Under the pieces are notes generated by a model. That model had not been told where the DNA came from. It worked only from the letters and a program-made list of their open reading frames with translations, and ran no database searches. Both the position numbers and the translations under genes were made by a program. 64,000 nt of DNA from Limisalsivibrio acetivorans (GTDB lineage Bacteria > Chrysiogenota > Deferribacteres > Deferribacterales > Geovibrionaceae). Location: the NCBI RefSeq assembly GCF_000421105.1, contig NZ_ATWF01000002.1:434001-498000 (forward strand), written 5' to 3'. Shown in pieces: positions 16,569 through 28,118 of this stretch. The first letter of the stretch is position 1. Every line of letters begins with the position of its first letter.

Positions 16569-17660
16569 CTACCCTCCAAAACTCTTTATACAATCAGCTA
16601 CGTATTCCGCCTCTTCCGCTGTAAGGTGCTCACCCATGGGGAGTGAAAGGAGCTCCTTATCCGTTCTGCATGCGAAGAAATCTTCACACCCGTCCGCCTT
16701 AAAGGCGGGCTGTTTAGGCAGAGCCACGGGGTAGTGTATGCCGGTCTGGATCCCCTTCTCTGTGAGGTATTCACGAAGTACATCACGCCTTTCGTGGCGG
16801 ATAACAAACAGGTGCCACACATGGCGAACACCTTCACGCACAACGGGGAGGACAGCATCCGTTCCTTTGAGCTTGTCCAGATATATCCCTGCAATACGGT
16901 TTCTCGCACCGATCCATTCATCCAGATACTTCAGCTTAACGGAGAGCACCCCCGCTTGCAGACCGTCCAGGCGGCTGTTGCGCCCCTGAAAGTCATGATA
17001 AAACTTGCTGGTGCGGCCGTGATCTATGTATTGCCGTATCCTTGAGGCCATATCCTCATCCTTAGTCACCACAGCTCCACCGTCTCCGTAGGCTCCGAGA
17101 TTTTTCCCCGGATAGAAGCTGAACGCTCCCGCATCACCCATAGAGCCGGTTCTTTCTCCGTTATACTCCGCACCATGGCTCTGGGCGGAATCCTCCAGAA
17201 CCTTAAGGCCATGCTTGCAGGCGATCTCCATGATCTTGTCCATCCATGCGGGCTGGCCGTAGAGGTGGACGGGGATGACGCAGGATGTGTTCGGGGTTAT
17301 AACCGATTCCAGGCTTTCCGGGGAGATGGTGTAGTCCTCCAGACAGTCGCAGAACACAACCTTGAGCCCGTTGCGGACCACAGCCTCGGCCGTTGCAATG
17401 AAAGTATTCGCAGGGATAACAACCTCACTCCCCTCGGGGAGGTTCATGCCCCAAAGGGCGGCCTCAAGGGCGTCGGTTCCGTTTCCGGTTCCCACACAGG
17501 CCTTCGTCATTGTATATTCGGCAAAGGCGGCCTCAAACTCCGCAGGGTATGCTCCCCCCACAAAGGCCCCCTTATCTATTATTTCATGGAGCTTCTGATC
17601 CATCTCGTGCTTCATCTTCCGGTACTGCCCCGGAAGGTCCAAAAACTTTACTTGCCGCAT
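16569..17660 (-). CDS. DegT/DnrJ/EryC1 aminotransferase (WbpE/WlbC-like)
   Basis: This 363-aa PLP aminotransferase has TGNGTDALEAAL for phosphate binding, VLEDSAQSHGAEY with the Asp that contacts the PLP nitrogen, and GAFSFYPGKNLGAYGDGG with the Schiff-base Lys in PGKN. The PGKNLGA form is characteristic of 3-aminosugar transaminases such as WbpE/WlbC and FdtB. GGAGG lies 11 bases before the ATG. Flanked on both sides by Gfo/Idh/MocA genes and followed upstream by a hexapeptide acyltransferase, it fits a 3-acetamido sugar pathway. Confidence 0.87.
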   Translation of the reverse strand: MRQVKFLDLPGQYRKMKHEMDQKLHEIIDKGAFVGGAYPAEFEAAFAEYTMTKACVGTGNGTDALEAALWGMNLPEGSEVVIPANTFIATAEAVVRNGLKVVFCDCLEDYTISPESLESVITPNTSCVIPVHLYGQPAWMDKIMEIACKHGLKVLEDSAQSHGAEYNGERTGSMGDAGAFSFYPGKNLGAYGDGGAVVTKDEDMASRIRQYIDHGRTSKFYHDFQGRNSRLDGLQAGVLSVKLKYLDEWIGARNRIAGIYLDKLKGTDAVLPVVREGVRHVWHLFVIRHERRDVLREYLTEKGIQTGIHYPVALPKQPAFKADGCEDFFACRTDKELLSLPMGEHLTAEEAEYVADCIKSFGG

Positions 17661-18622
17661 CTTGATATAACCTCCAGAGCGTTCATAACGTTGATAATCG
17701 AGCCCTTGCCATGCTCCGGCTCCTCACCGGTTTCAACACATCTGATGAAGGAGTTTATGGCGTTCTCAAGGGGCTGGGATACAGGGATATCGATAACCCG
17801 TTCCTCACCGTAGCGGTACTGAACAAGGTGCTTATGCAGGGCGTTTGCGTCCAGATCCTCCTCCATGATAACACCACGGTCGTATACCTTGAGCTTGTCG
17901 GGGGCTGTATCATCATAGACCGCCATCATGTCCTCGCCGCCGATGATCATCTCTCGCACCTTTACTGGGCTGAGCCAGGATACGGCTATGTTAATGATGG
18001 GGCCGTCCTGAATGTCGAAGTTTATATTTGCAAGGGCATCGTTGGGGAAATCCCTGTATTTGCGCCTTGTCACTGTTACGTTACGGATATCGAGGCCGAA
18101 GAGGTAGTCGATGATCGAGAGATCATGCACCGCAAGATCCCATACAACGTCAACACTGTGCTGAAATAACCCGAGGTTGATCCGCCTGCTGTTCACGTAT
18201 ACCACATCCCCGAACTTACCCTCATCGAGGAGGTTCTTAAGCTTCTTGACGGGGTCGGAATAGAGGAATACATGATCCACAAATGAGATCAGTCCTCTGT
18301 CCTGCGCCTTAACGATTATCTCGTAGGCGTGGCGTATATCTGTGGTGAAGGGTTTTTCCACGAAGATATGTTTGCCGTGCTCAAGGCACTCCATGGCAAT
18401 CCTGTGGTGTGTCTGGGGGGGAGTGGCTATGAAAACCGCCTCGCAGTCGGATTTAAGAACATCGTCCAGCGTCTTATCCGGATCGGTTCCGTAATCCTCC
18501 TGTCCAGCCTTTGCCCTTTCAGGCGTTGTGTCGATGATATACTCGGGGGATGAACCCACAGAGTCGAGCGTTCTGGCAACGTTGCGCCCCCAGTAGCCGT
18601 ATCCTATCAATGCCGTTTTCAT
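17648..18622 (-). CDS. Gfo/Idh/MocA-family oxidoreductase
   Basis: A 324-aa NAD(P)-dependent oxidoreductase: ALIGYGYWGRNVART for nucleotide binding, IATPPQTHH and the catalytic FVEKPFTTD, with VWDLAVHDLSIIDYL supplying the His. Its start overlaps the acyltransferase stop by 4 bases and its end overlaps the aminotransferase gene by 13. It differs from the other Gfo/Idh protein at 15503. One of the two likely oxidises C3 of an NDP-sugar; whether the second acts on the same route or on a separate sugar is not clear. Confidence 0.83.
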   Translation of the reverse strand: MKTALIGYGYWGRNVARTLDSVGSSPEYIIDTTPERAKAGQEDYGTDPDKTLDDVLKSDCEAVFIATPPQTHHRIAMECLEHGKHIFVEKPFTTDIRHAYEIIVKAQDRGLISFVDHVFLYSDPVKKLKNLLDEGKFGDVVYVNSRRINLGLFQHSVDVVWDLAVHDLSIIDYLFGLDIRNVTVTRRKYRDFPNDALANINFDIQDGPIINIAVSWLSPVKVREMIIGGEDMMAVYDDTAPDKLKVYDRGVIMEEDLDANALHKHLVQYRYGEERVIDIPVSQPLENAINSFIRCVETGEEPEHGKGSIINVMNALEVISRCGK

Positions 18623-19155
18623 TTCACTGCTCCCCTTGAAACCGCCCTCTGGCCATACACAAGCTCATCATCCGCCATATCCTTTGCAACAAGGCTTCCG
18701 GCTCCAGCCATCGCTCTCTCGCCGATGGTTACACCGCAGAGAACAACACTCCCTGCGCCGATGCTTGCATAGTCCTTTACAACGGTTTCGGTTATTTCAT
18801 ATTCCTGTATCAGCTCCCCGCTGTTGGTGCATGAACGGGGGTACAGATCGTTTGTGAAGGTTACGTTGGGGCCTATGAAAACCCCCTTGCCGAGGCTGAC
18901 CCCTTCGGGTATGAAAACAAAGGGCTCGAGCTTGCACCGCTCTCCGAGGGTAACGCCGGGGCGGATCTCCACAAAGTTGCCTATCTTACACTCCGCACCG
19001 ATCCTGCACCCGTAAATATTCACGTTCGCCCACAGGTTTACACCCTCACCGAGGATGCAGTTCTTCACTATTATGTTGAACTCGGGTATATGAAGGTCCT
19101 GCGGGGTTTCGTTATCGAATTCGATTCTTTCATTTCTTACAAGTATATAGCCCAA
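18619..19155 (-). CDS. Hexapeptide-repeat N-acetyltransferase (WbpD/WlbB-like)
   Basis: A 178-aa left-handed beta-helix acyltransferase. Hexapeptide turns run from about residue 28 to 160 (NCILGEGVNLWANVNI, IGNFVEIRPGVTLGE, YASIGAGSVVLCGVTIGE), and the GPNVTFTNDLYPRS loop is typical of WbpD/WlbB and FdtC acetyltransferases that N-acetylate 3-amino sugars. The start is TTG at 19155, with AGGGGG 6 bases upstream and no usable ATG near the N-terminus. Together with the downstream oxidoreductase and aminotransferase this forms the standard oxidation-amination-acetylation trio. Confidence 0.85.
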   Translation of the reverse strand: MGYILVRNERIEFDNETPQDLHIPEFNIIVKNCILGEGVNLWANVNIYGCRIGAECKIGNFVEIRPGVTLGERCKLEPFVFIPEGVSLGKGVFIGPNVTFTNDLYPRSCTNSGELIQEYEITETVVKDYASIGAGSVVLCGVTIGERAMAGAGSLVAKDMADDELVYGQRAVSRGAVK

Positions 19156-19164
19156 AACAACCCC

Positions 19165-20151
19165 CTATACCCTACCGGACCAGCTTCGAAGCTCCTCTAT
19201 GGTGAGGAAGTGCTCATTGGTGTCTGATTTATAGTGGAATTCGGGGTCAACCAGCGCTCCGCCCGGGGTGAAGTGTTTGGCGTTGTCCCACCAGTTGAAG
19301 TTGGGATATATGATAAAATAGTTGTCGTACTCATAGGTTGTGCGGGAATCCTCCATGGTTATCATCTCCTCATGGAGCTTCTCCCCCTCCCTTATTCCAA
19401 TCTCCTTCTGCTCTGCCTCCGGAAGCATCGCCTCTGCGAGGTCGGTGACACGGAAGGAGGGTATCTTGGCAACGTATATCTCCCCCCCCTTCGATTCGTT
19501 TATAGCACGGATAACCATCTGAACCCCCTGCTCAAGGGTGATCCAGAAGCGTGTCATACGGAAATCGGTGATGGGGAGCTCCCTTGCGCCGCTATCCACT
19601 AGCCTGCGGAAGAATGGGATCACAGAACCCCTGCTTCCGGCCACATTGCCGTAGCGCACAACACTGAATGTGGTCCTCTTTGAGCCGGAATAGGCGTTTG
19701 CGGAGGTGAACAGCTTATCGGAAACAAGCTTGGTGGCACCATAGAGGTTAACAGGATGAACCGCCTTATCTGTGGAGAGTGCGATAACCTTGTCCACATT
19801 GCGGTCTATGGCGGCATCTATGATGTTCTGCGCTCCGTAGATGTTGGTCTTTATCGCTTCGAGGGGGTTATATTCAGCGGCGGGAACCTGCTTCAACGCA
19901 GCGGCGTGAACCACCACATCAACGCCGTCCAGCGCCCTGTACATCCGCTCCCTGTCACGCACATCCCCGATGAAGAATCGCATACGCCCGCTGAAGGAGC
20001 TGAACTCCTCCTGCATCACATACTGCTTGTACTCATCACGGGAGTAAATAATTACCTTCTTAGGATTGCAGTTTTCAAGGATATAACGGGTGAAAACTTT
20101 GCCGAAGGAGCCTGTGCCCCCAGTTACCAGAATGGTTTTATCGCTGAACAT
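19165..20151 (-). CDS. pseB: UDP-N-acetylglucosamine 4,6-dehydratase (inverting), PseB
   Basis: A 328-aa SDR of the PseB/FlaA1 type, the first enzyme of pseudaminic acid synthesis. It converts UDP-GlcNAc to the 4-keto-6-deoxy-L-arabino-HexNAc. Visible motifs are ILVTGGTGSFGK for NAD(P), IYSRDEYKQY, HAAALKQVP and LYGATKLVSDK with the Lys of the active site; DxxK-type chemistry is supported by LSTDKAVHP. The ATG is preceded by GAGGTGA at 9 bases. A 126-base gap with its own candidate promoter separates it from pseH, so pseB may start a second transcript. Confidence 0.93.
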   Translation of the reverse strand: MFSDKTILVTGGTGSFGKVFTRYILENCNPKKVIIYSRDEYKQYVMQEEFSSFSGRMRFFIGDVRDRERMYRALDGVDVVVHAAALKQVPAAEYNPLEAIKTNIYGAQNIIDAAIDRNVDKVIALSTDKAVHPVNLYGATKLVSDKLFTSANAYSGSKRTTFSVVRYGNVAGSRGSVIPFFRRLVDSGARELPITDFRMTRFWITLEQGVQMVIRAINESKGGEIYVAKIPSFRVTDLAEAMLPEAEQKEIGIREGEKLHEEMITMEDSRTTYEYDNYFIIYPNFNWWDNAKHFTPGGALVDPEFHYKSDTNEHFLTIEELRSWSGRV

Positions 20152-20277: not shown

Positions 20278-20811
20278 CTAACCCCGCCCTTCGGCCTCCT
20301 GCTCTGTTATCCCCATAAGGAGGACATCGAGCCATTCGCCGTTTTTATGTATATATTCTCGAAGTTTACCCTCATGCCTGAAACCGTGCTTCTCATAGAA
20401 CTCCACAGCCTTATCGTTCCCCTCTATGACCTCAAGCTTAAGGGTATGCAAACCAAACTCCTTGAACGCAAGGAAGAAGAGCGCATTTATCAGTGTCTCC
20501 CCTGCACCTCTGGCATCGGGGGCGGAGTATATACCGAGCTTTGCGCTTCTGTGCTTTTCACTAATACACCCGATATTTACGACACCAATGGGCTCATCAT
20601 GCCTCTTAACGAGGAAGTGCTGTTCGCAGGACTGTCCCTCAAGGCTCCCCACGAAGCAGTAATGCTCATCCTCACCTATCTCATGATCCGTATACATCCA
20701 GTGGCGTATCTCAGGATCGTTTCTCCATCTTCGAACCAGCTCGGATTCTTCCTTCTTCAACACAACAAAATTAATCAGCTCGCAGAAACCTAAATCCCTT
20801 CTTTCTATCAT
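20278..20811 (-). CDS. pseH: GNAT N-acetyltransferase, PseH type
   Basis: A 177-aa GNAT acetyltransferase. In the pathway it would acetylate UDP-4-amino-4,6-dideoxy-N-acetyl-altrosamine at N4. SELVRRWRNDPEIRHWM is the usual start of PseH-like GNATs; GIYSAPDARGAGETLINAL is the acetyl-CoA loop and LHTLKLEVIEGNDKAVEFYEKHGF the C-terminal motif. I chose the ATG at 20811, which directly follows the pseI stop and has AAGGGGA upstream; in-frame starts at 20826 and 20841 lack a ribosome binding site. It is the last gene before the 126-base break in the cluster. Confidence 0.85.
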   Translation of the reverse strand: MIERRDLGFCELINFVVLKKEESELVRRWRNDPEIRHWMYTDHEIGEDEHYCFVGSLEGQSCEQHFLVKRHDEPIGVVNIGCISEKHRSAKLGIYSAPDARGAGETLINALFFLAFKEFGLHTLKLEVIEGNDKAVEFYEKHGFRHEGKLREYIHKNGEWLDVLLMGITEQEAEGRG

Positions 20812-20812
20812 A

Positions 20813-21886
20813 TCATTCCCCTTCATCTTCAAAGAGTTCAAAGGAAGCAGGAGTTCCTCTGTCTATATCCTGAGCCGCTGTTTTCCCAAGCAGCTCCCTG
20901 TAATGCTTTGTATGCAGACCACCAGCCGGCCGTATGGAGCGCAGGTTCTTCTCTGTGATAAGCTCACCCTTCTTAACGTCTTCAACGATGAAGAGTGATC
21001 GGGAGAAGGCTCTGCTACCTTTGGCCTTTTCGGTGAGCTGATAGTCGGGCTTACCAATGCTCGCCTCCGCCATTCGTACCTGACGCACCATCTCCGCAAA
21101 CTTCGCAGGCTCCATGGAGAAAGGGGCATCGGGTCCGCCCATGCTTCGATCTATTATGAAATGCTTCTCGATAACCTTTGCCCCGAGTGCAGCGGCAGCA
21201 ACGGGGACCGTGTGCCCCTCTGTATGATCAGAGACACCGGTAAGCACTCCGAAACGCTTACGCATATCCGCCATGGTGCTCAACTTCGCATCCTCCACTG
21301 GTGCGGGGTATGCGCTGGTGCATTTGAGTAGGATTATCTGGTCATTACCCGTACTGCGCACCGTCTCCACCGCTAGCTCGATATCCTCAAGCTCTGCAAT
21401 GCCGGTGGAGATTATTACAGGCTTACCCTTGGAGGCTGTGTACTCTATGAGCGGTATATCATTTATCTCGAAGCTGGCTATCTTGTATGCGGGTACATCC
21501 ATACCCTCTAAAAAGTCCACCGCTGTGAAATCAAACGGGCTCGAGAAACAGAGCATACCCAGTTCACCGGCCAGTTTTTTCAGTTTCGGCTGCCACTCCC
21601 AAGGTGTGTAGGCCTCTTTGTACAGGTCGTATAAAGTTCTTGAGTCCCAAAGGGTTCCATGGTTTATGGTGAAAAGGTCATTGTCGCAGTCTATGGTGAT
21701 AGTATCCGGGGTATAGGTTTGAAGCTTAACGGCATCCGCCCCCGCCTCAGCCATGGCACGGATGGTGGATTCCGCCACAGTGTAATCCCCGCCGTGGTTG
21801 CAGGAGAGCTCCGCAATGATCAGTGCGGGGGATTCATCGTCCAGAATCCTTCCGCCTATTCTTACTTCCCGCTTATCTCTTTCCAT
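20813..21886 (-). CDS. pseI: Pseudaminic acid synthase, PseI
   Basis: A 357-aa NeuB-family enzyme that condenses 2,4-diacetamido-2,4,6-trideoxy-altrose with phosphoenolpyruvate. The TIM-barrel part shows IIAELSCNHGGD, GADAVKLQTYTPDT, LKCTSAYPAP and SDHTEGHTVPVAA-GAKVIEKHF, all PEP and metal binding motifs; the C-terminal SAF (antifreeze-like) domain follows (about residues 290-350). EL.CNH and TPDTIT favour pseudaminate over sialate or legionaminate synthase. The ATG has GAGGA upstream and lies 25 bases inside the formyltransferase-like gene. Confidence 0.92.
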   Translation of the reverse strand: MERDKREVRIGGRILDDESPALIIAELSCNHGGDYTVAESTIRAMAEAGADAVKLQTYTPDTITIDCDNDLFTINHGTLWDSRTLYDLYKEAYTPWEWQPKLKKLAGELGMLCFSSPFDFTAVDFLEGMDVPAYKIASFEINDIPLIEYTASKGKPVIISTGIAELEDIELAVETVRSTGNDQIILLKCTSAYPAPVEDAKLSTMADMRKRFGVLTGVSDHTEGHTVPVAAAALGAKVIEKHFIIDRSMGGPDAPFSMEPAKFAEMVRQVRMAEASIGKPDYQLTEKAKGSRAFSRSLFIVEDVKKGELITEKNLRSIRPAGGLHTKHYRELLGKTAAQDIDRGTPASFELFEDEGE

Positions 21887-22461
21887 AGCTTCCTCAGCTC
21901 TGTTATGGTTATATCCTCACCCGTCTCTTTTACCCTTTTCTTTAACTCTACCAGTTCGTCAGGCGCATGGTAGCTCCCCTCATCCTCTCTGGGGATAGCC
22001 TTCAGCCTCCGTTCACGTATGTAGCTCCAGTTGAAATGGAACATATCCAGCAGACGTTCAACCAGCATCTCCTTGAGAGTGGCGAGGGTCTCCCTATCCT
22101 CATCGGGCTCAATGCGTTCCTGCACAAGTATATCGCCGTTGCGCAATTCACTGTCCACTACCCTGTGCATGCTCACACCCTTTGGCGTACCCTCTATACA
22201 GCTCCACAGCATGGGATCGTAACCCCTGTTCCACGGGAGGTAGGAGGGCTGGAGGTTTATTATCCTGTTCCTGAATTCATCCAGAAGATTACCGGGGATG
22301 GAATGCTCATAGAATACGGATATTATAAATCCGGGGTCAGATTCCAAAGCCTCGGCAAGGGTTATACCCCCTGTGTGGACGGTAACCTTTCGTTCCCGCT
22401 CCTCAAGCCATTCGGCAAGAGGGTTTGCCTGTGTGCTGTCTGTCAGCAGCAGTATATTCAT
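21862..22461 (-). CDS. Formyltransferase-fold protein with altered catalytic residues
   Basis: A 199-aa protein of the formyltransferase fold (PF00551 type), as used by sugar N-formyltransferases and Fmt. The family core INLQPSYLPWNRGYDP-LW is obvious, followed by GTPKGVSMHRV and NGDILVQ. In E. coli Fmt the catalytic set is Asn106, His108 and Asp144; here the Asn is kept, the His aligns with Gln (N-L-Q) and the Asp of LDTGD aligns with Arg (LRNGD). It is embedded in the pse operon with 4- and 25-base overlaps. It could formylate a pseudaminic precursor by another mechanism, bind sugar without catalysis, or transfer another group. Confidence 0.75.
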   Translation of the reverse strand: MNILLLTDSTQANPLAEWLEERERKVTVHTGGITLAEALESDPGFIISVFYEHSIPGNLLDEFRNRIINLQPSYLPWNRGYDPMLWSCIEGTPKGVSMHRVVDSELRNGDILVQERIEPDEDRETLATLKEMLVERLLDMFHFNWSYIRERRLKAIPREDEGSYHAPDELVELKKRVKETGEDITITELRKLWKEISGK

Positions 22462-23354
22462 CGCACTCTCTCCAGAATAAATTCAGCGGCCCTTCTGGCA
22501 CCCTGGCCATCGACCAGCTCCCTTGCGGAGGTATTCACACCCCTGCCCAGGACCGCCGCATGCTTCCTTAGAAGCCCTTCGAATCCTTCATCATAAGCCC
22601 TTCCGGCACTTTTGAAAACCCCGCTGCGCTCCCATGCCCTAAGGTTGTTCTCCTGATTCTCCGCAACGGAGAAGATGCATCCCGTAAGCCCCGCTCTGGC
22701 CAGCTCATATGTTGTCTGGCCGGCGGCGGAGAAGGCGCAGGATGAGATCTGCATAAGCTTAAGCATCTCCTCTGCGTCCAGATCAAAGAAGGTATTCACC
22801 CTCACCGAGCTCACCGGAGGCTTCACCGAAAGGACGTTCAGCGTCTCATCCGTCTGCTCAAGGAGCACCCGGCAGATCTTTTCCAACACATTCCCCGGCG
22901 TACTCCCCCCAGCACTCACAAAGATCCCCTGCTCCCCCTCCATGGGGGTGAGATCCCAGAAGGGTTTCCTGAGCAGAGCGTATTCAACGCCGAGGAGGGT
23001 ATCATCCCGGTTATAGGGGAGCTCTTCGGCATAAAGTGCACCGTTTATAACAACGCCCGGAGGGTACTCCAAACGCATATAGTCATCCAAAAAAACATCC
23101 AGACCGTTATCAAGACCCTTAAGGTATAAGGCATCCGGTTCATAGGAGTCTATTACACATATATCAAAGCCGGACGGAGGCGTATCCTCCTGCCACTGCT
23201 CCGCTTTTATGCCGCATCCCGCACCGTATGTTCCGTCCACATAAACCACAGGATCCTCACCACGCTCACGCAGGGCATCCCTGAGAGCCAGACATCTGCC
23301 GAGGTGACCGAAACCTGTTTTACCACCCGCAGCGGTGAAGATACCGATCCTCAT
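22458..23354 (-). CDS. pseG: UDP-2,4-diacetamido-2,4,6-trideoxy-altropyranose hydrolase, PseG
   Basis: A 298-aa GT-B-fold hydrolase that removes UDP from the nucleotide sugar. The N-terminal G-G-K-T-G-F-G-H-L-G-R-C-L stretch carries the catalytic His of PseG (H17 equivalent). IFVSAGGSTPGN and the nucleotide-binding AGQTTYELARAGL follow. The start overlaps the pseF stop by 4 bases and the end overlaps the formyltransferase-like gene by 4. Its position between PseF and PseI matches known pse clusters. Confidence 0.9.
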   Translation of the reverse strand: MRIGIFTAAGGKTGFGHLGRCLALRDALRERGEDPVVYVDGTYGAGCGIKAEQWQEDTPPSGFDICVIDSYEPDALYLKGLDNGLDVFLDDYMRLEYPPGVVINGALYAEELPYNRDDTLLGVEYALLRKPFWDLTPMEGEQGIFVSAGGSTPGNVLEKICRVLLEQTDETLNVLSVKPPVSSVRVNTFFDLDAEEMLKLMQISSCAFSAAGQTTYELARAGLTGCIFSVAENQENNLRAWERSGVFKSAGRAYDEGFEGLLRKHAAVLGRGVNTSARELVDGQGARRAAEFILERVR

Positions 23355-24175
23355 CCAAGCTCACGTTTGAGTAAGGATGCCGAGTACTTCATATCCTGCC
23401 TCTCAAGGAGCTTGACCGCTTCCTCCAGCTCCTCTTTTTCATCGGAAAAAACACGCTTCTGCATAACGGAGGCGTTTATATCCCTCAACCACGGCTTATC
23501 ATTGAATAGCTCCACGATATCCTTAAGCCCGAAATCCTCACCCAGATAGTCGTACACGGTGCATATGAGGTTGTAATCCTCGGGAGTATCCAGAGTTATG
23601 CGGATGTCCGGTGCGATAAGGCTGTGGTCCGGACAACGGTAGGAGGCGGTTGTGAACGCTCCGCTCTTATATATATAAGGGGTGACATGCTCACGGTAGT
23701 CATCCCTTTCGGTCTCTTTGTAAGCCCTATCCAGAGCTTCGAAGGTGAAAATCTCCGTATCCATGCCGTGGGGGAAGGTCCTCTCGGCGGTATTTGACAT
23801 ATAGTCACGCCCGCTTCTTCTGAACTCCTCCAGCATCATATCGATAACAACGGGGTCGATGCATGGGCAGTCCGCCGTGATGCGGACGATTATATCAAGG
23901 CTGGAAGCGGCGGCCGCTCCGTAGTATCTGGCAAGAACATCATCCTCGCTCCCCCTGAAAAGCTCCGCACCGGATCTCTCTGCAACAGGTATAACCGCAT
24001 CGTCCACACTGTTTGTTGTAGTTGCAACGACAACATCGTTCGCAGAGGATGCTCTGCATCTTTTAACAACCTGCCCGAGTACGGTGGTGTCGCCGCCGTA
24101 GGGGAGCGGTTTCAGGATCTTGGCAGGGAGCCTTGAGGAACCCGTTCTCGCCTGTATGACAATTCCGGTTCTCAT
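23351..24175 (-). CDS. pseF: CMP-pseudaminic acid cytidylyltransferase, PseF/SpsF-like
   Basis: A 274-aa nucleotidyltransferase. The N-terminal IVIQARTGSSRLPAKIL is the CTP-binding signature of the SpsF/PseF family; VVATTTNSVDD, DVLARYYGAAA and ITADCPCIDP are the remaining nucleotide and metal motifs. It activates pseudaminic acid as CMP-Pse. It is somewhat longer than typical PseF (about 230 aa), with an extra helical C-terminus rich in Glu and Lys from about residue 235. Four-base overlaps on both sides tie it to pseC and pseG. Confidence 0.87.
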   Translation of the reverse strand: MRTGIVIQARTGSSRLPAKILKPLPYGGDTTVLGQVVKRCRASSANDVVVATTTNSVDDAVIPVAERSGAELFRGSEDDVLARYYGAAAASSLDIIVRITADCPCIDPVVIDMMLEEFRRSGRDYMSNTAERTFPHGMDTEIFTFEALDRAYKETERDDYREHVTPYIYKSGAFTTASYRCPDHSLIAPDIRITLDTPEDYNLICTVYDYLGEDFGLKDIVELFNDKPWLRDINASVMQKRVFSDEKEELEEAVKLLERQDMKYSASLLKRELG

Positions 24176-25317
24176 CCAAGCTCCTCCAGTGTTTTGTTTA
24201 CAACATCTATAACTCTATCCGTCTCCTTCTCGCTCATCAGAGGAAACATCGGCAGGCTTATCACCTTCTTGTAGAACTCCTCGGTCTCCGGAAGGCTGAA
24301 ATCCTCAAAGCCGTTCTCCCTGTAAAAGGGATGCTGGTAAACAGGAACATAGTGCACCTGGGCGAGGATACCCTCCGCATGGAGCCTTTCGTAGAACTCC
24401 TTCCTGTCGACACTCACCCTGACGGGGTAAAGATGGTAGCTGTGCATGGTTCGAGGTCTGTACGGCGGGGTTTCGATAAGCTGGTTCTCCATGAACGCTT
24501 CGTCGTACTTTATGGAGATATCCCGGCGTTTCTCGATGAACATGTCGAGCTTCTTAAGCTGGCTTACGCCGAGAGCTGCCTGTATATCGCACATGCGGTA
24601 GTTGAACCCGAGCTCCTGCATCTCCATATACCAGCCGCCATGGGACTCCTTCTCGAAATCCGTTCTGGTAATGCCATGATTGCGGAATCGGCAGAGGCGT
24701 TCGGCGGTGTCCGTATCGTTGGTGAGCACAGCTCCCCCCTCCCCTGTGGTGAAATGCTTTACCGGATGGAAGCTGAAAACTGTCATATCCGAATAGGCAC
24801 AGGAGCCTGTCTTTGTATCCTTGTATACAGCACCCGGGGCGTGGGATGCATCCTCGATAACCTTAAGCCCCTTATCGGAGGCTATCCCGGCGATACGCTC
24901 CATATCAGCAGGCTGGCCAGCATAGTGCACGGGAACGATCAGGGTTGTGGTCTCATCTATGAGTGCTTCGATATTATCTGGGTTAATATTCCCCGTATCC
25001 GGCTCTATATCTGCAAATCGGGGGGATGCGCCTAGATACAGGCCGGCATTGACTGTGGCGGCGAAGGTCATTGCGCTTGTGATGAAAGTGTGTCCCGCAT
25101 CGAGCCATGCGGCGTGGTATGCGGCGTGCAGTGCGGAGGTTCCGCTATTGAAGACCACGGCGTAGTCCGCATCGAACCTTGACGCCAGCTCCTTCTCGAA
25201 AAGCTCCACAAAGGGGCCTCCTGTTATCATATCCCCCTTCAGAGATTGAATAACCGAATCAATATCGTCCTTATCTATCCACTGCCTGCCGTAGGGTATC
25301 TTCTCTCTGCCGGACAT
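24172..25317 (-). CDS. pseC: UDP-4-amino-4,6-dideoxy-N-acetyl-altrosamine transaminase, PseC
   Basis: A 381-aa PLP aminotransferase, second step of pseudaminic acid synthesis. MSGREKIPYGRQWIDKDDI is the usual PseC N-terminus; VFNSGTSALHAAY binds phosphate, VIEDASHAPGA carries the PLP-nitrogen Asp, and TVFSFHPVKHFTTGEGG holds the Schiff-base Lys (HPVKH, a PseC hallmark). It is the first gene of the leftward pse block; GGGAGG lies 9 bases before the ATG. A weak promoter (TAAAAT at 25358-25353) is possible in the short space upstream, just beyond the flagellin-side terminator. Confidence 0.93.
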   Translation of the reverse strand: MSGREKIPYGRQWIDKDDIDSVIQSLKGDMITGGPFVELFEKELASRFDADYAVVFNSGTSALHAAYHAAWLDAGHTFITSAMTFAATVNAGLYLGASPRFADIEPDTGNINPDNIEALIDETTTLIVPVHYAGQPADMERIAGIASDKGLKVIEDASHAPGAVYKDTKTGSCAYSDMTVFSFHPVKHFTTGEGGAVLTNDTDTAERLCRFRNHGITRTDFEKESHGGWYMEMQELGFNYRMCDIQAALGVSQLKKLDMFIEKRRDISIKYDEAFMENQLIETPPYRPRTMHSYHLYPVRVSVDRKEFYERLHAEGILAQVHYVPVYQHPFYRENGFEDFSLPETEEFYKKVISLPMFPLMSEKETDRVIDVVNKTLEELG

Positions 25318-25650: not shown

Positions 25651-28047
25651 TTAGCCCTGAATGAGCTGGAGAGCCATCTGCGGTATCTGATTCGCCTGGC
25701 TAAGCATCGCTATGCCGGACTGATTAAGAATCTGATACCTGGTAAAGGTTGCCATCTCAGAAGCAACATCAAGATCACGGATCCTTGACTCACTAGCTGT
25801 CATGTTCTCTCTGGCAGTTTCGAGGTTGTTGATGGTGTACTCGAGCCTGTTAATCTGAGAACCGATAGTTGCTCTGATGGTAACAACCTTATCAAGGGCT
25901 GCATCAATATCGGGGATCGCTCTTTGAGCGAGATCCTGCGATACCAGGGTTGTATTCTCTATACCCAGACCTTCAACATCGAGCTGAGGTATGGAAACGG
26001 AGAGCTGCTGTCCTTCGTTGGGCCCTATCTGGAGATCCGTGGAGTTGTCCACAACGTGGAGGAAAAGCTCCTTGGAGGATTCATCCGTATTCTCGGAGAA
26101 TGATATCTCCTGATTGATAGTATCCCAGGACTCGTTTACGCCTGCTCTGGAATCGATGATAATCTCGATACCGTCCACAATGCCGTAAACTCTGTCGTTT
26201 CCTGTTTCATCAGTACCGATGAGTTCGCCTGTGTGGGCATCTTTAACAGTTACGTGGGTAGTATTGTTTGTGGGTTCCTGAATCTCAGCAAGGGAGAATC
26301 CGTCGATGAGCCTCTGATCACCGCTGAATGCAAGTTCTCCCTGCTCGCCTGTGAGAGCAGTCTGGATTATAAAGGTACCCTTAACGCTTCTTTCGCCATC
26401 GGAATCGGGAACAGAAACGTAGTCCACAAGGTGGCTGTTTACGTTACTGCTCTCTGAGCCCATATCAAGGCCATCCACTATAGCCTCTTCGATCTTCTTC
26501 TCAACATCGGCGATGGTGTCATCACCCTCAAGGAAGATCGTAGCGCTCTTTCCGTTACCCCAAATGGTAAGCTCCTGCTTGTTGTCGAAGACGTTGTTTC
26601 CATCCGCATCCACGAATCTGGCGATATCCTTCATCTTTGTTGTGGATGTTGCGGCATCTCCGGACCCTCTGATTTCGAGGTCAAAGGCATCTGAAGATGT
26701 TCTTCCTGCTGCGGGGCTGGAGTCGTTACTCTGCTCCTTGAAGTTGAGGGTCATATTACCGATGTCAAGGTTACCTGTGCTGTCGTTGAGCTGGGCGTAG
26801 TAGAGCTTGACTTCGTTGTAGTCCACAACTGTGTCGCCGTTATCCGCAGTGGTAAGGGAGCTTGCGCCTGTGAAGTAGATTGTGGGGCCATCCTGCCCTT
26901 CGGGCCCGCCGGTTATCTGCACACTACCGCCTCCGGAGGAGGAGAAGTTGCCCGTTGCGACGCCGCCTGTAAGGGAGAAGAGAACCTTGTCGCCCGCCTG
27001 AACCGCACCGTTTGAGGAAAGGGTTACGGTGAAGTCGATGGCGATGGAGTTTCCGGCTGTGTTTGTAAGCCCTGCTGTGGTGGTATCGACAAGGAACGTG
27101 GAGTTACCCGCATTCGCCGCCGCACTAACAGTTACCCAGTCGCTTATGGAGCCGGTTTTTGCGTCTACGAAGCGTACGTTTACGCTTCCGTTCTTGGAGC
27201 TGCTTGCGGAGAAGTTCTCGGCAAATTCAACCTCAAGATAGCCGCTCGCACCGCCGGAAGCGGATACGTTTGTGGCGTTCACGAGGAAGGATGAACCGGG
27301 CTGCTCGTAGTAAGCAAGGGTGCTCATACCAGATACATCGCCGGTTACATTACCGCTTACCTTTACGCTGAAGTAGGCAGTTCCTGTGGAGGGGAGTGAC
27401 TCGGGGTTGTTCACGAAAGCAACGTTTGTGTTGTTTCCGCTGGATCCGCCGCCTGTCACGATCTCCGATCCGATGACATCTTCACTGAGTGTCATGATGT
27501 CGGTTTTGAACTTCTGGTTGGTACCGGGGGTGGTGTTCAGCGATATCTTGTAGTTCCCCTCAGCAACATCATCACGAACGATCGCTTTGATCTTGTTGTT
27601 GCTGGCGGACCAGAGTGCTGTTCCGTCACCATTAAGAAGTTTCTTTGTGTTGAACTCGGTTGCGGAGGAGATTCTGTTGATCTCATTCTTGAGCTGATCA
27701 ACCTCTTTCTGAATCTCGATCCTGTCGTTTGAGGTGTAGGTTCCGTTTGAGGCCTGCACTGCAAGCTCCCTCATTCTCTGGAGCATGGAGCTAACCTCGC
27801 CGAGAGCGCCTTCCGCCGTCTGGAGCATGGAGATACCGTCCTGTGCGTTCATAGATGCACGCTTGAGACCGGTGATCTGTCCTCTCAGTTTTTCGGAAAT
27901 CGCAAGGCCTGAGGCATCATCTGCGGCATGATTGATACGGAGACCTGATGAAAGTTTTTCCAGGGATTTACTCAGCTGATTCTGAGTATTGCCCAGATAC
28001 CGCTGGGTGTTCAGCGACATCGTGTTCTGATAAATCCTAAGTGCCAT
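25651..28047 (-). CDS. fliC: Flagellin with a very large variable region
   Basis: A 798-aa flagellin, well beyond the usual 280-500 aa. The conserved N-terminal D0/D1 ([37 protein letters not shown], about 1-165) and C-terminal D1/D0 ([18 protein letters not shown], ending at QMALQLIQG, about 700-798) are intact. In between lie about 530 residues rich in Ser, Thr, Asn and Gly, forming the surface D2/D3 domains and likely O-glycosylated. An upstream in-frame extension to 28095 was rejected: the ATG at 28047 has AAGGAGG 6 bases before it and begins at the known flagellin N-terminus. The pseudaminic acid genes follow immediately downstream. Confidence 0.95.
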
Positions 28048-28118
28048 GTCATCCTCCTTGATTCTTTCAATAGAGGCACGCGCTTCCTTGCGCACATTAA
28101 CAATCGTACACTTTCATT

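Follow-up and report, generated by a model that had tools for sequence, protein, structure and literature searches.

Within the 64,000-nt stretch of Limisalsivibrio acetivorans DNA that was analysed (NZ_ATWF01000002.1, positions 434,001–498,000; referred to as the window, and its genome as G000), one gene of a pseudaminic acid operon encodes a formyltransferase-fold protein in which catalytic residues are replaced. The best explanation, to which we assign a probability of about two in three, is that this gene descends as a pseJ orthologue together with the operon pseC-F-G-J-I-H-B, that its product has lost formyltransferase activity and is now a fold-intact pseudoenzyme, and that PseH acylates the sugar. 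By ancestry the protein (window PseJ) is a PseJ, whereas its activity is probably no longer that of one. The computed evidence consists of homology, predicted fold, residue losses, co-occurrence with PseH and faster evolution.

Window pseJ and its operon

The gene occupies positions 21862–22461 on the minus strand, exactly where the first-pass annotation had placed it, starts with ATG and encodes 199 aa. In the order of transcription, and all on the minus strand, the operon comprises pseC (24172–25317; TIGR03588, 475.6 bits), a PseF-type cytidylyltransferase gene (23351–24175; PF02348, 93.1 bits, with the name taken from operon position), a PseG-like hydrolase gene (22458–23354; TIGR03590, 76.3 bits, under the cut-off of 153.55), window pseJ, pseI (20813–21886; TIGR03586, 484.6 bits), pseH (20278–20841; TIGR03585, 159.4 bits with a cut-off of 93.1) and pseB (19165–20151; TIGR03589, 536.5 bits). 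PseB, PseC, PseH and PseI all exceed their NCBIfam cut-offs, which places window PseJ in a pseudaminic acid operon. The 5′ end of window pseJ shares 4 bases with the end of pseG, and its 3′ end shares 25 bases with the start of pseI. Both overlaps are consistent with translational coupling, in agreement with the earlier proposal of a coupled gene between pseG and pseI. The reading frame is open with a GC3 of 0.61 (0.56–0.67 in the neighbours), and dN/dS comparisons involving window pseJ are saturated.

Upstream of the operon, at 25651–28095, lies an ORF that was named flagellin-like by eye from its sequence; its 814-aa product has an unusually extended central part. Downstream of pseB (16569–19155), genes for an aminotransferase, a Gfo/Idh oxidoreductase and a hexapeptide acetyltransferase resemble a second amino-sugar pathway.

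Family and predicted fold

Window PseJ matches PF00551 (Formyl_trans_N) with 47.9 bits (the gathering score is 26.1), and with 29.7–48.6 bits it stays below the cut-offs of 150–777 of the NCBIfam equivalogs fmt, PRK07579, ArnA, PRK06988 and PurN. Its top sequence match in the PDB is PseJ from Anoxybacillus kamchatkensis (6ci2, E 2.1e-28), followed by the formylation domain of LgrA (E 2.9e-21). The AlphaFold2 model, predicted from the protein's own sequence and 54 relatives, has a mean pLDDT of 95.4 and a pTM of 0.88. When the predicted structure was compared using Foldseek, PseJ came first (6ci4, E 6e-19, TM 0.84/0.88), and in VIA-align LgrA came first (Z 25.3) with PseJ at 23.7–23.8. In the PseJ tree, window PseJ groups with the PseJ proteins of G001, G004 and G007, which belong to its own family (support 97/90).

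The formyltransferase fold claimed in the first-pass annotation is therefore borne out by the PF00551 match and by the similarity of the predicted fold to PseJ, and the pathway position that it proposed is right, with the gene inside a pse operon and PseJ as the closest solved relative. It missed that this pathway has a formyltransferase of known structure (PseJ 6ci2, 6ci4, 6ci5 and 6edk) and that PseH is encoded in the operon too. The window protein looks like a variant of PseJ with replaced catalytic residues and not like new chemistry.

G000 contains seven PF00551 places above the cut-off, and the six besides window PseJ keep His and Asp, one of them (L205) with Tyr instead of Asn. A second PseJ that takes over in this genome was considered and rejected, as those six places match window PseJ at approximately 34 bits at most. 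Two formyltransferase-fold ORFs with intact His and Asp (G000:C2:422850–423188 and 426536–426856, in frames of 262 and 308 aa) sit about 7–11 kb before the window.

Replacement of catalytic residues

The catalytic residues of E. coli PurN are named as His108 and Asp144 in one account (PMC3261824), and Asn106, His108 and Asp144 are given as the catalytic triad in another (PMC4786211). Window PseJ was aligned with 11 sequences from genomes of its order, PseJ, LgrA and 80 loci from public contigs, giving 94 rows; the 80 loci are the best 80 of at least 234, and the sampling leans to sequences near the query. Within these 94 rows, and with that sampling, the catalytic Asn (Asn69, codon 22255–22257 on the minus strand, as for the following) is kept in 94/94; the catalytic His, found in 93/94, is missing in window PseJ only, where it is Gln71 (CAG, 22249–22251); and the catalytic Asp, found in 91/94, is Arg107 in window PseJ (CGC, 22141–22143) and Asn in L038 (G001) and L024 (G039). 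A one-residue insertion beside the Asp loop, aligned at Arg100 (22162–22164), faces a gap in 93/94 rows, again with the best 80 of at least 234 loci. The Asn-x-His motif region of window PseJ is INLQPSYLPWNRG, with Q71, and the second loop is HRVVDSELRNGD, with R107. N69/H71/D107 presumably correspond to the E. coli Fmt numbering, through the alignment with PseJ and LgrA. The kept Asn, the His-to-Gln and the Asp-to-Arg replacements had all been described correctly in the first-pass annotation, and the relatives have His and Asp at these places. A single sequencing error was rejected for R107: at least two base changes separate CGC from each of the Asp codons, and therefore no single base-call error explains it.

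The alignment that had been proposed along with that description contains no alternative His or Asp in register at the catalytic places of window PseJ, and none of the 93 aligned relatives (80 of them the best 80 of at least 234) carries the Gln/Arg pair. Scans of Campylobacterales (9/298 genomes matched) and of the family of G164 (6/299) yielded 13 PseJ-like sequences above 200 bits, all of which have His and Asp; five or more of these 13 had already been counted in the set of 80 loci. The weaker matches L197 and L198 are other formyltransferases and also have both residues.

At 35 well-conserved columns of the same alignment (best 80 of at least 234 loci), window PseJ is changed at 9, the next highest count is 5, and 81/94 rows are changed at two or fewer. 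Among the changed columns are the His/Asp pair and positions in the loop that follows, and the replacements include A81Y, N84M, Y130K and Q158R; Gly, Pro and Trp are preserved at their conserved columns. Besides the catalytic Asn, 25 of the conserved columns are intact.

Co-occurrence of PseJ and PseH

The 6ci series of PseJ structures includes, according to the PDB title, a soak with UDP-4-amino-4,6-dideoxy-L-AltNAc. From this title and the family name of PseH we infer the same amine for both enzymes, so that PseH and PseJ appear to act on the 4-amine of this sugar nucleotide. In the window and in G001 the gene order is pseC-F-G-J-I-H-B, the Asp of PseJ is replaced in both, and their PseH proteins, encoded in the same operon slot, are sisters (87/85). 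In G004 and G007, from the same family as the window, the order is pseC-F-G-J-I-B with approximately 80 bases at the pseH slot; PseJ is intact in both, and neither genome has a strong PseH match. In G003, also of this family, PseJ adjoins PseI only and is intact, and the genome likewise lacks a strong PseH match.

PseH was scanned for at 50 of the 80 loci (themselves the best 80 of at least 234), hand-picked with operon context preferred. Genomes with at least 80 bits were taken as PseH-positive (the TIGR03585 cut-off is 93.1, and four of the 11 positives are at 81–88 bits), five genomes at 60–78 bits were set aside, L021, from a genome that is 57% complete, was omitted and L110 (52 bits) was counted as negative. 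His or Asp is lost in 3/11 PseH-positive and 0/45 PseH-negative sequences (Fisher p 0.006, kinship ignored), or in 3/11 and 0/50 when the five intermediate genomes are taken as negative (p 0.005); with these as negative and window PseJ removed, p is 0.025, again with kinship ignored. The losses are few, and they come from phylogenetically non-independent sequences. All three PseJ proteins that lack the Asp (window, L038 and L024) come from PseH-positive genomes. Both residues are kept in 8/11 PseH-positive sequences, and therefore PseH does not force the loss. The pattern is compatible with an ancestor whose operon encoded both PseJ and PseH; one line would later have lost pseH, and others the catalytic function of PseJ; alternatively, pseH may have been gained separately.

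The scheme inferred from these comparisons, which covers the loss of activity, the shared substrate, the direction of evolution and any remaining role, would run as follows. Two enzymes would serve one 4-amine, with PseJ formylating and PseH acetylating it, and since both are encoded in one operon, one of them would be dispensable. The window lineage would have kept PseH together with a PseJ that is devoid of the catalytic His, Asp and other conserved residues and preserves its fold; G004 and G007 would represent the opposite outcome, with pseH absent and PseJ intact. Because PseH is kept and the catalysis of PseJ would be lost, the flagellar pseudaminic acid is expected to carry the N-acetyl group made by PseH. 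Window PseJ would then persist as a pseudoenzyme devoid of catalysis that perhaps serves in binding or as a scaffold.

Evolutionary rate and retention of the gene

In rate trees of eight or nine genomes each (six for pseG), the pseJ branch of the window has 1.42 changes per site, 2.6 times the 0.55 on the G004/G007 side, and the same ratio for pseC, pseF, pseG, pseI and pseB is 1.3, 0.6, 1.2, 0.9 and 1.2. In a larger PseJ tree two branches are flagged as long, namely that of the window (2.0) and that of G028, which is also PseH-positive. Site counts against G004 or G007 gave 35–39 window-only changes versus 14–26 (p 0.0013 to 0.13), and in counts against G001 there was no excess for the window with two of the five outgroups. 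PseJ of the PseH-positive genome G001, in which Asn replaces the Asp, shows no acceleration on the tree (ratio 0.8).

The restriction of the faster change to pseJ among the pse genes compared, and the alteration of Y130K, Q158R and other conserved columns beyond the His/Asp pair, would also be expected of a decaying relic, whose function went with the catalytic residues and whose frame has just not yet been disrupted. We regard this reading as unlikely. Simulated neutral change bears on it in both directions: after 18 missense changes, the excess by site counts, the frame stays open in 44% of runs, whereas after 170, approximately the excess by the tree, it does so in 0.05%, which would argue against a relic if the tree estimate is right. 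The open frame with its coupled start and stop, the neighbour-like GC3, the confident predicted fold and the kept Gly, Pro and Trp columns also speak against decay, and we consider retention of the protein the more probable alternative.

Gene fusions and G-tracts in relatives

In G039, PseJ and PseH are fused in a single frame of 358 aa (L024 907–1980) whose PseJ half has the Asp-to-Asn replacement, and in G037 a further PseJ-PseH fusion (L017 922–1998) has an intact PseJ part. These fusions hint that the two proteins are able to function next to each other. PseG-PseH fusion ORFs of 506–529 aa are present at L138, L143, L146 and L147 (G032, G021, G028 and G014).

Runs of nine G were found in the f6 (Mucispirillum-type) genomes G016, G037 and G035, which hold both enzymes. 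In G035 the run lies near the 3′ end of pseJ (L126 9340–9348), at a break in the reading frame, and the C-terminal portion that is thereby missing is found in another frame; in G037 it lies at the pseJ/pseH junction (L017 1433–1441), in frame, and yields the fusion; and in G016 it lies inside pseH (L125 8817–8825), in frame. The three operon stretches checked in PseJ-only f6 genomes (G029, G036 and G041) have no such run in pseJ, and the run of G041 is elsewhere. The runs suggest a phase-variable choice between formyl and acetyl. In a Helicobacteraceae genome with an intact PseJ, the PseH match is split over two frames (L167; G195:C48:10865–11334).

Retention of a non-catalytic partner for the PseH pathway could be one of several outcomes of the formyl/acetyl choice within one phylum, the others being absence of pseH beside an intact PseJ and phase variation of pseJ or pseH by simple repeats. 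The G039 fusion suggests that an inactive PseJ can serve PseH directly, as a substrate-holding or assembly domain, and window PseJ might do likewise as a separate chain; we put this forward tentatively, as a reading that is less likely than not.

Residual or altered catalysis

Of the three options offered in the first-pass annotation, the non-catalytic one fits the comparative evidence best, and nothing points to new chemistry or re-wired catalysis. An enzyme that transfers formyl or another acyl group through other residues (e.g. Glu105, Asp110, His99 or Gln71/Arg107) is an improbable reading: Asn69 is retained, as is the invariant His99, and a Glu at position 105 is rare (3/94, with the best 80 of at least 234 loci), but the same replacements occur in no relative found (the 94 rows so sampled, plus Campylobacterales and the family of G164), the amine would already be served by PseH, and the active-site loop has the insertion and the further losses A81Y and N84M. 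A weakly active, ordinary PseJ is very improbable, although single active-site mutants of related transformylases can retain some activity and the Asp-to-Asn PseJ proteins of G001 and G039 are otherwise well conserved, since window PseJ is devoid of both residues and several other conserved ones are gone too.

Comparison with known systems

The choice of formyl or acetyl on pseudaminic acid alters the flagellar surface, and if PseH is accompanied by a retained but inactive PseJ, annotating the latter as a formyltransferase predicts the wrong sugar. These operons form a natural series (PseJ only, both enzymes, PseH with a dead-looking PseJ) for testing enzyme replacement by species. One account describes pse genes without PseH in Geobacillus flagellin islands and formyltransferase genes in some island types (PMC5109656), and formyltransferases are reported in enterobacterial flagellin islands in another (PMC4875605).

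Among close relatives, PseJ of G004 and G007 has the same place in the operon and forms the sister group of window PseJ in the tree, but differs in its intact His and Asp and in an operon without PseH. PseJ of G001 (L038, a Deferribacterales MAG) shares the operon with PseH and a replaced Asp; unlike window PseJ, it has Asn at this place, keeps the His and is not accelerated on the tree. The formylation domain of LgrA (linear gramicidin synthase) has the same fold as window PseJ, with Z up to 25.3, but is part of a peptide synthetase and keeps the His and Asp that window PseJ has lost. PseJ of Anoxybacillus kamchatkensis (6ci2, 6ci4, 6ci5 and 6edk) is alike in sequence, fold, length class and place in a pse operon. 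It has Asn, His and Asp, whereas window PseJ has Gln and Arg for His and Asp together with the insertion in the Asp loop, and, unlike in the Anoxybacillus case, the window operon also holds PseH.
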